Shown: piece after piece, positions 54,237 through 56,612 of the stretch
Layout of the letters: each line of letters starts with the position of its first letter
How positions within the stretch are numbered: position 1 is the first letter of the stretch
Assembly (NCBI GenBank): GCA_902763335.1
Contig: CACWRR010000001.1
Span: 1-64,000 of the forward strand
DNA: 64,000 bases
Source of the DNA: an uncultured Lachnospiraceae bacterium
GTDB taxonomy: Bacteria; Bacillota; Clostridia; Lachnospirales; Lachnospiraceae
Reading direction: 5' to 3'
Translations under genes and position numbers: made by a program
The notes under the pieces: model-generated
Databases searched by the model: none
Told to the model about the DNA's origin: nothing
The model's input: the letters and a program-made list of their open reading frames with translations, nothing else

Positions 54237-55559
54237 ATGGGAACATCTTTAGCTACAGATGGTTCTGATAAGAAAAAAGTAATGCTTACTTCTATACTGT
54301 TTATGGGACTCGGACATATTGTTCATTTAAAACAGTGGGTTAAGGGTATATTCTTTGCCCTCATAGAAGTAATATTTTTATGTTTTGTTCCGCATTTTGT
54401 AACAAAACTGGATGATATGATACATATTGGTAAAGACCAGTCTATGATACCGGCTGCAGAGAGACAGATGTCAACCTTCATGTTAATTGATGGTATTATA
54501 GTATTGGCATTTATAGCAATTTTTATTGTTGTATATGTATTGTCGGTTAAAAGTGCATTAGCTGATTACAGAGATTACTGTATTTTAGGAAAATATGCTG
54601 ATAACAGAGATGCTACAAAAGGAATTTTAGGAAAAGCTTTCCCTATCGTTGGCCTTGCACCAGCGTTAATCCTTATTGTATTCTTCGTTATTGTTCCGTT
54701 GGTATTCTCAATAACAGCGGGATTTACAAACTGGTCTAATCCGGATCATATCCCACCGGGAGGTTCAGTAAACTGGGTTGGACTTGAGAATTACATCGGC
54801 ATGTTCGGTGGAGAAGCAGAGTGGTCATCAGCATTCTTACGTGTTGCAGGATGGACGCTTATCTGGGGATTCTGTGCTACATTCACTAACTACTTTGGTG
54901 GAATGATTATGGCAGTTATCTTCAATCAGACAAAGTTAAAAATAGCTCCTGTTTTCAGAGCAATTTTCATTTTACCATATGCTATTCCTAACATCCTTAG
55001 TATGATGGTATGGAAGAACCTTTTGAATGGATCTTCAGGTACGGTAAACAAAACACTTGAGGCAATGGGTCTTATAGATCATGCTATTCCTTGGTTGTCT
55101 GACGTAAACTACGCAAGAATGACTTGTGTGCTTGTAAACTTATGGGCAGGTTTCCCATATTTCATGATGCTTATTGCTGGTCAGATGACTGCTATATCTA
55201 CAGATATATTTGAAGCGGCAGCTATCGATGGTGCTAATAAGTTCCAGATATTTAAGAGTATTACATTACCAATGGTATTATACCAAACAGTGCCTTTGAT
55301 TATCATGTCATTTACACATAATGTAAATAACTTCGGTGTTATCTACTTCTTGACAGGTGGTGCACCAAACGTTGCATCGTCAACAACCACAAAAGCGGGT
55401 GGTACGGATATCGTCGTAACATGGATTTACAAACTGACTATGGACGATATGAACTACAAGAACGCATCAGTACTTGCCATGTTCGTATTTGTAGTACTTG
55501 CACCATTTGCTATATTTAACTTTATGAATACTAAGTCGTTTAAGGAGGGTGAATTATAA
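54237..55559 (+). CDS. Sugar ABC transporter permease (MalF-like)
   Basis: First membrane subunit of the importer, 440 aa. Two extra N-terminal hydrophobic segments (about residues 20-60 and 80-105) precede a core of six helices. The EAA loop that meets the ATPase reads EAAAIDGANKFQIFKSITLPM. ATG 54237 follows GTGAGG; an in-frame TTG at 54177 is in the hairpin and is not used. The next gene starts on its stop codon. Confidence 0.9.
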   Translation: MGTSLATDGSDKKKVMLTSILFMGLGHIVHLKQWVKGIFFALIEVIFLCFVPHFVTKLDDMIHIGKDQSMIPAAERQMSTFMLIDGIIVLAFIAIFIVVYVLSVKSALADYRDYCILGKYADNRDATKGILGKAFPIVGLAPALILIVFFVIVPLVFSITAGFTNWSNPDHIPPGGSVNWVGLENYIGMFGGEAEWSSAFLRVAGWTLIWGFCATFTNYFGGMIMAVIFNQTKLKIAPVFRAIFILPYAIPNILSMMVWKNLLNGSSGTVNKTLEAMGLIDHAIPWLSDVNYARMTCVLVNLWAGFPYFMMLIAGQMTAISTDIFEAAAIDGANKFQIFKSITLPMVLYQTVPLIIMSFTHNVNNFGVIYFLTGGAPNVASSTTTKAGGTDIVVTWIYKLTMDDMNYKNASVLAMFVFVVLAPFAIFNFMNTKSFKEGEL

Positions 55560-56398
55560 TGAAAAAAAGTTCAAAAGCTACAGCTTTAACAGTGCTGGTA
55601 GTTGTATTTTTACTCCTTGTTACGTTTATAGTATTATACCCTATCGTGTTCGTTGTAAGTGCAGCATTTGCACCGGGTAATACAGCAACAGGTCTTTCTA
55701 TAATACCTTTTGCACAGGGATTTACTACTGAGCATTTTTCATATTTGTTTAATGAGACAAACTTTGTATTATGGTTCCAGAACACACTTATTATAGCTAT
55801 CTGCACAAGTGCAGCATCTATAGTTGTATGTTCGTTATCAGCATATGTTTTCTCAAGATTTAGATTTGCACTTAAGAAGGCAATGCTTATGTCATTGCTT
55901 ATATTACAGATTTTCCCATCTTTCGTTGGAATGATAGCTATCTATGTTATCATCAACAGAATGGGTGCTTATAACCAGTTATGGGGTCTTGTACTTGTTT
56001 ATGTTGCAGGTAACGTACCTTATAATACATGGCTTGTTAAGAGTTATCTGGATACTATTCCTAAGAGTCTTGACGAAGCAGCCAGAATCGATGGAGCTAA
56101 CCACCTTACAATTTTCGCACGAGTTATAATGCCGATTGCAAGACCAATCATTATCTTCCTTGCAATTACAACATTTACAGGTCCGTGGATGGACTGGATT
56201 TTCCCGAAACTTGTATTAGGTGAAAATGAGAAGCAGACATTAGCACTTGGACTTTTCAGCTTTGTTACAGATAGAAAAGACCAGTTCACAACATTTGCAG
56301 CAGGAGCATTACTTATCGCAATTCCTTTCGTATTCTTCTTTGTAATAACACAGAAGGCACAGACAGAAGGTCTTGGAGCTGCAGCTGTTAAGGAATAA
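55559..56398 (+). CDS. Sugar ABC transporter permease (MalG-like)
   Basis: Second membrane subunit, 279 aa, with six hydrophobic helices and the EAA loop EAARIDGANHLTIFARVIMPI. The end (EGLGAAAVKE) is typical of MalG. ATG 55559 overlaps the previous stop. No ATPase gene follows, so a shared MsmX/MsmK-type ATPase elsewhere must power it. A terminator lies 20 bp on. Confidence 0.9.
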   Translation: MKKSSKATALTVLVVVFLLLVTFIVLYPIVFVVSAAFAPGNTATGLSIIPFAQGFTTEHFSYLFNETNFVLWFQNTLIIAICTSAASIVVCSLSAYVFSRFRFALKKAMLMSLLILQIFPSFVGMIAIYVIINRMGAYNQLWGLVLVYVAGNVPYNTWLVKSYLDTIPKSLDEAARIDGANHLTIFARVIMPIARPIIIFLAITTFTGPWMDWIFPKLVLGENEKQTLALGLFSFVTDRKDQFTTFAAGALLIAIPFVFFFVITQKAQTEGLGAAAVKE

Positions 56399-56417: not shown

Positions 56418-56460
56418 GGAGAGGCACTATGGCGTGTGAGCTATGGTGTCTCTTTTTTTG
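56418..56460 (+). terminator. Terminator of the importer operon
   Basis: GAGAGGCACTAT at 56419-56430 pairs with ATGGTGTCTCTT at 56443-56454 with G-U pairs; seven or more T follow. Confidence 0.8.
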
Positions 56461-56482
56461 TTATGTGACAGTATGTTTATAT

Positions 56483-56602
56483 GATTTAGGTGTCAAAAGG
56501 GTGCTACGCACCAGTCAAACACAATATGTGATATTGCAAGCTGGCTTGCAAATACACATACTTGTGTCGGCTAGTCCCCGTAGGGGCTTTTGACCCTAAA
56601 TC
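56483..56602. repeat. Inverted-repeat element with three internal hairpins (MITE-like or ncRNA)
   Basis: Outer arms GATTTAGG-TCAAAAG at 56483-56499 and CTTTTGAC-CTAAATC at 56587-56602 pair with one bulged base. Inside are three hairpins: GGTGC/GCACC (56500-56512, loop TAC); a long one from 56519 to 56567 with ACACAA/TTGTGT, ATGTG/CACAT and TTGCAAG/CTTGCAA; and CCCC/GGGG (56576-56586, loop GTA). Together they make a closed multi-branch fold of about 120 nt. It has no open frame. Only one copy is in this window. It follows a terminator and precedes the dacF promoter. Confidence 0.6.
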
Positions 56603-56612
56603 TTATATAAAA

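Follow-up and report, generated by a model that had tools for sequence, protein, structure and literature searches.

Type II MITEs, described as QMITE in Coxiella and Chunjie in Geobacter, are elements of less than 500 bp that lack an ORF, carry terminal inverted repeats (TIRs) and lie between genes; their target duplications are lost with age, their transcript is stably folded, and shortened copies occur (PMC10969869). The Correia elements of Neisseria are MITEs that lie close upstream of genes and can join transcripts (PMC10969869), and REPINs combine a fixed spacing and a hairpin with compensatory changes in their variable part (PMC3116915). Here we describe an element that, judged from its sequence, shares these features, found in a window of 64,000 nucleotides (the whole stretch of DNA analyzed) from an uncultured Lachnospiraceae bacterium. 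Correia elements, which have promoter activity and are processed by RNase III, differ from the present element in their ends, host phylum and internal layout. Unlike the type II MITEs, the present class has a fixed length of 120–121 bp and a TIR stem that encloses three hairpins, its layout is common to families with differing inner sequences, and no parent IS was identified for it (PMC10969869 for comparison); unlike REPINs, it has 17-bp TIRs and target duplications of 7–8 bp. Our analysis assigns the element, with a probability of about 0.93, to the type II MITEs, as a non-autonomous and non-coding DNA transposon with 17-bp TIRs and a 7–8 bp target duplication. A search of the open literature for the end sequence of the class found no description, and none was found for MITEs in Lachnospiraceae or Clostridia.

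The first-pass annotation had placed a structure of about 120 bp at 56483-56602 and drawn it as a four-way layout, and the position proved correct. An outer stem of 16 pairs with one bulged T, formed by the arms 56483-56499 and 56587-56602, encloses three hairpins (Table 1). The outer stem, the GGTGC/GCACC and CCCC/GGGG pairings and the tiny TAC and GTA loops, seen in hairpins 1 and 3, were as described, but the long hairpin spans approximately 60 nt rather than 49 nt. Folded as RNA, positions 56473-56612 of the window reach −57.6 kcal/mol compared to −30.8 ± 3.6 kcal/mol for dinucleotide shuffles (z = −7.46), with 0 of 200 shuffles equally good. No long ORF belonging to the window element was found, in agreement with the annotated absence of a coding frame, and an Rfam 15 covariance-model search with the element gave nothing near any gathering score. 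The terminator annotated upstream is supported, but support for the annotated promoter is weak: the single match on the plus strand (56458-56485) overlaps the left end of the element, and such matches are not commoner than expected by chance.

Table 1. Features of the window element, its immediate surroundings and its shortened relatives.
Feature	Position	Strand	Description	Basis
Whole element	56483..56602	+	120 bp; family norm 121 bp	Ends from multi-copy alignment; covariance-model match C1:56483-56602
Left TIR, GATTTAGGTGTCAAAAG	56483..56499	+	Family form GATTCAGGTGTCAAAAG	
Right TIR, CTTTTGACCCTAAATC	56587..56602	+	1 base short of family CTTTTGACACCTGAATC	
Target-site duplication TTATAT, left copy	56477..56482	+		
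Target-site duplication TTATAT, right copy	56603..56608	+		
Hairpin 1, GGTGC-TAC-GCACC	56500..56512	+	Five pairs invariant	26-sequence alignment
Long hairpin	56513..56572	+	~60 nt; conserved tip TTGCAAGC..GCTTGCAA	
Hairpin 3, CCCC-GTA-GGGG	56576..56586	+		
Intrinsic terminator of upstream malG-like gene	56418..56455	+	Context, outside element	
Stubs	Own genome L064, L065, L066, L068, L069, L070; other genomes L268-L270, L303-L307			

The element is flanked upstream by a gene for a malG-like sugar ABC permease (55559-56398) and downstream by a D-Ala-D-Ala carboxypeptidase-like (dac) gene that begins at approximately 56678, both named from their translations. The malG-dac neighborhood is conserved in four congeneric species (G001-G004) without the element between the genes, indicating that the window copy is an insertion; this comparison is at the level of synteny because the flanks are too diverged for base-exact alignment. 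The covariance model described below found no copy anywhere in G002-G004 and a single copy, at another site, in G001.

Use of the element with 10-bp flanks as a query matched 40 places in its own 2.5-Mb genome, and a covariance model derived from 26 of the copies brought the total to approximately 50 loci, full or shortened, essentially all of them intergenic. Beyond this genome the model matched a single copy each in a congener and in a member of another genus, and the remaining 58 relatives searched had none. Four contigs of the own genome (G000:C47, C9, C5 and C57) carry 3 or 4 copies per 18–60 kb, compared to a genome mean of about 1 per 50 kb. Alignment of the copies gave sharp ends, GATTCAGGTGTCAAAAG on the left and CTTTTGACACCTGAATC on the right, which form the 17-bp TIR of young copies. 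Outside these ends there is no similarity between copies, only direct repeats of 7–8 bp that abut the ends, for example CTATACAT, CTGATATG, CTAAGTAA and TTAGCAG, and 11 of 19 young copies scored above the 95% level of mismatched-flank controls for such a target-site duplication (TSD). To our knowledge, Y1 transposition leaves no such target duplication; the duplications point to a DDE transposase. The first-pass annotation had proposed either a non-autonomous mobile element, to be recognized by further copies and by target duplication at the edges, or an undescribed structured RNA, to be recognized by compensatory changes and expression. The copies, the TSDs (for the window copy, TTATAT on both sides) and the malG-dac site, occupied here and empty in the congeners, lead us to conclude that the element is a MITE, bearing out the first proposal: it is multi-copy, short and non-coding, has TIRs, shows TSDs in its young copies and is missing from the site in relatives. 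Internally deleted stubs of 27–65 bp, recurrent in three genomes, have retained the two ends and in many cases the target duplication as well; we infer that they probably arose by slippage from one short repeat to another at the bases of the hairpins.

The element belongs to a wider class. A scan for both ends spaced 72–102 bp apart found at least 112 stretches among sequenced species; a scan of genome contigs with an inner-core pattern gave no match, while the end-to-end pattern worked. The Clostridia matches listed, from Lachnospiraceae, Herbinix, Fusibacter and others, have the 17-bp end GRTTNNRGTGTCAAAAG, followed in most cases by exact duplications of 6–8 bp, and Lachnospiraceae bacterium A2 has at least 27 copies of 120–121 bp, most with exact target duplications. 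The genomes SIG294 and ABMPRH_237_1 are likewise rich in MITEs. Among the matches listed, 25 of 55 distinct elements with these ends have the three-branched outer stem, and 22 of these 25 are 120–121 bp in length. The inner sequences differ between families, while the ends, the length of 120–121 bp and the four-way layout are common to them; 19 of 36 consensus pairs are altered on both sides across 12 families.

Other repeats came to light in these searches. The Bacteroidota matches listed, with GAGGGT/GAGGCT ends and without clear duplications, were set aside as a different element. Repeats of about 105–135 bp with GAGG(G/C)TGTGTCAAAAG ends, often with strong hairpins, occur in this phylum (L137, L138, L145, L153, L173, L205 and others) and are possibly a separate mobile family. 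A Prevotella MAG has a TolC-like outer-membrane efflux gene between inverted GAGGGTGTGTCAAAA ends (L140:3252-4745). Lachnospiraceae SIG294 (G064) contains a second MITE size class of approximately 300 bp with GATTTGAGTGTCAAAAG ends (L260, L262-L265, L274, L275), as well as a 920-bp unit in which GATTTGAGTGTCAAAAG-type ends flank an ECF sigma-factor-like gene.

Known insertion sequences were considered as the parent. The own genome has no match to PF00872, PF13610, PF06782, PF01610 or PF13751 (IS256, IS6, ISLre2, ISL3 and IS1182, respectively). IS256, IS6, ISLre2 and ISL3 were rejected on the absence of their transposases from this genome; IS1182, likewise without a match there, has copies in relatives, and these do not carry the ends of the element. 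TIR listings of the own genome and of A2 contained no IS-sized pair of these ends.

Of the marks by which a structured RNA was to be recognized, compensatory changes are present. In the family of the window element, 21 of 51 pairs are changed on both sides, a level reached by 0 of 500 shuffles and compared to 8–11 pairs for control slides. Eighteen copies without a clear TSD differ from the young consensus at 117 outer pairs, 69 of which have compensating changes on both sides. Hairpin 1 is preserved in 16 of these copies and the TTGCAAGC tip in 14. Compensated changes of this sort can have three causes: the fold may be under selection, one palindrome arm may be corrected with the other as template, or masters that had already diverged may transpose. 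The last is illustrated by C23:11699 (GATGCCGGGGGTGAAAG), in which the stem is radically altered and the target duplication still perfect, indicating that diverged ends can apparently transpose. Under the second, the fold would not be selected at all, and quasi-palindrome repair (hairpin-templated correction) would make both arms drift together. Young copies whose TSDs are perfect also show concerted changes of the arms, for example GATTCATGTGTC/GACACATGAATC at C47:2744, and a concerted GTGCC/GGCAC change is found in copies of A2. In the diverged copies G-U pairs are about as numerous as A-C mismatches (43:36), a ratio that also fits templated correction and does not point to selection on one transcribed strand. 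However, the drift of the outer arms is not matched in hairpin 1 or the TTGCAAGC tip, whose sequences stay constant, and the 120–121 bp length and the spacing of the three hairpins are maintained across families, so we regard templated correction as a possible but tentative account of the fold, at somewhat below even odds.

We also compared the gene context of young and diverged copies, the two being separated by the inner-arm motif TTGGCT and not by position. Young copies were placed at random, with sense to antisense ratios in tandem contexts of 4:6 in the own genome and 9:5 in A2, and divergent to convergent ratios of 4:4 and 8:5, respectively. The 33 diverged copies, with ORFs called by a simple script, gave 15:3 and 15:0. 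By Fisher's test the difference from the young copies of the own genome has p = 0.035 for tandem orientation and 0.008 for divergent/convergent; against the young copies of both genomes pooled, the values are 0.057 and 0.005, so that the contrast in tandem orientation weakens. A raw count of 30/33 diverged copies with a sense downstream gene was dropped as evidence, since a divergent gene pair gives this result in every case, and only the tandem and the convergent/divergent contrasts were used. The bias raises the alternative that the element is a functional structured RNA, a cis-acting 5′ leader spread by mobility, with diverged copies kept because the fold, once transcribed, would protect the mRNA or regulate it. 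The sense bias in tandem contexts, the lack of convergent placements, the distance to the start codon (often 45–80 nt), the TATAAT-like boxes immediately upstream of several copies, and the double changes that preserve pairing in TSD-less copies are all in its favor. Against it, the young copies are randomly placed in both genomes, the genes downstream of diverged copies are functionally unrelated, many copies in divergent contexts are closer to the antisense gene, and there is no Rfam match. With G-U pairs not clearly above A-C mismatches, RNA-level selection on the fold is unproven. The structured RNA of the first-pass annotation may be an added role of the MITE, as the fold covaries and diverged copies tend to lie in sense orientation upstream of genes, but the comparison of G-U with A-C singles out no transcribed strand, and as the explanation of the element we consider it rather unlikely.

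That the element is REPIN/REP-like and moved by a RAYT (Y1) transposase via single-stranded DNA is very improbable: it is palindromic, intergenic and of fixed length with compensatory hairpin changes as in REPINs (PMC3116915), but REPIN/RAYT insertion is not known to involve a target duplication, and exact 7–8 bp duplications and 17-bp terminal repeats are present here.

For the element as a MITE, we propose that a DDE-type transposase supplied in trans would cut AT-rich, often TATAAT-like intergenic DNA with a stagger of 7–8 nt, at which the element would then be inserted. This transposase would have to recognize the GTGTCAAAAG ends and probably also the folded form of the element (hairpin or cruciform), since its length and pairing persist although the sequence drifts. 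With age, copies would be lost, or shortened by slippage to stubs; others would persist where the fold does no harm or is of use at the start of an mRNA 5′ leader. We infer preferential retention of diverged copies in 5′ leaders because of their sense bias. The architecture of the class is unusually fixed, and old copies may plausibly act as leader RNAs. A more far-reaching proposal is speculative and on present evidence unlikely to hold in full: a widespread class of MITEs in Clostridia that would need a four-way DNA fold of fixed length for transposition, whose sequence could drift provided that pairing is kept, and from which 5′ leader RNAs would be recruited time and again as copies age.

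The class is common in Lachnospiraceae, which are abundant gut bacteria. Covariation of a strength expected for an RNA is found here in an element that behaves as a transposon, and covariation alone is therefore no proof of an RNA gene. The element also raises two testable questions: can a transposase exert selection on the shape of DNA, and do MITE copies turn into mRNA leaders as they age?
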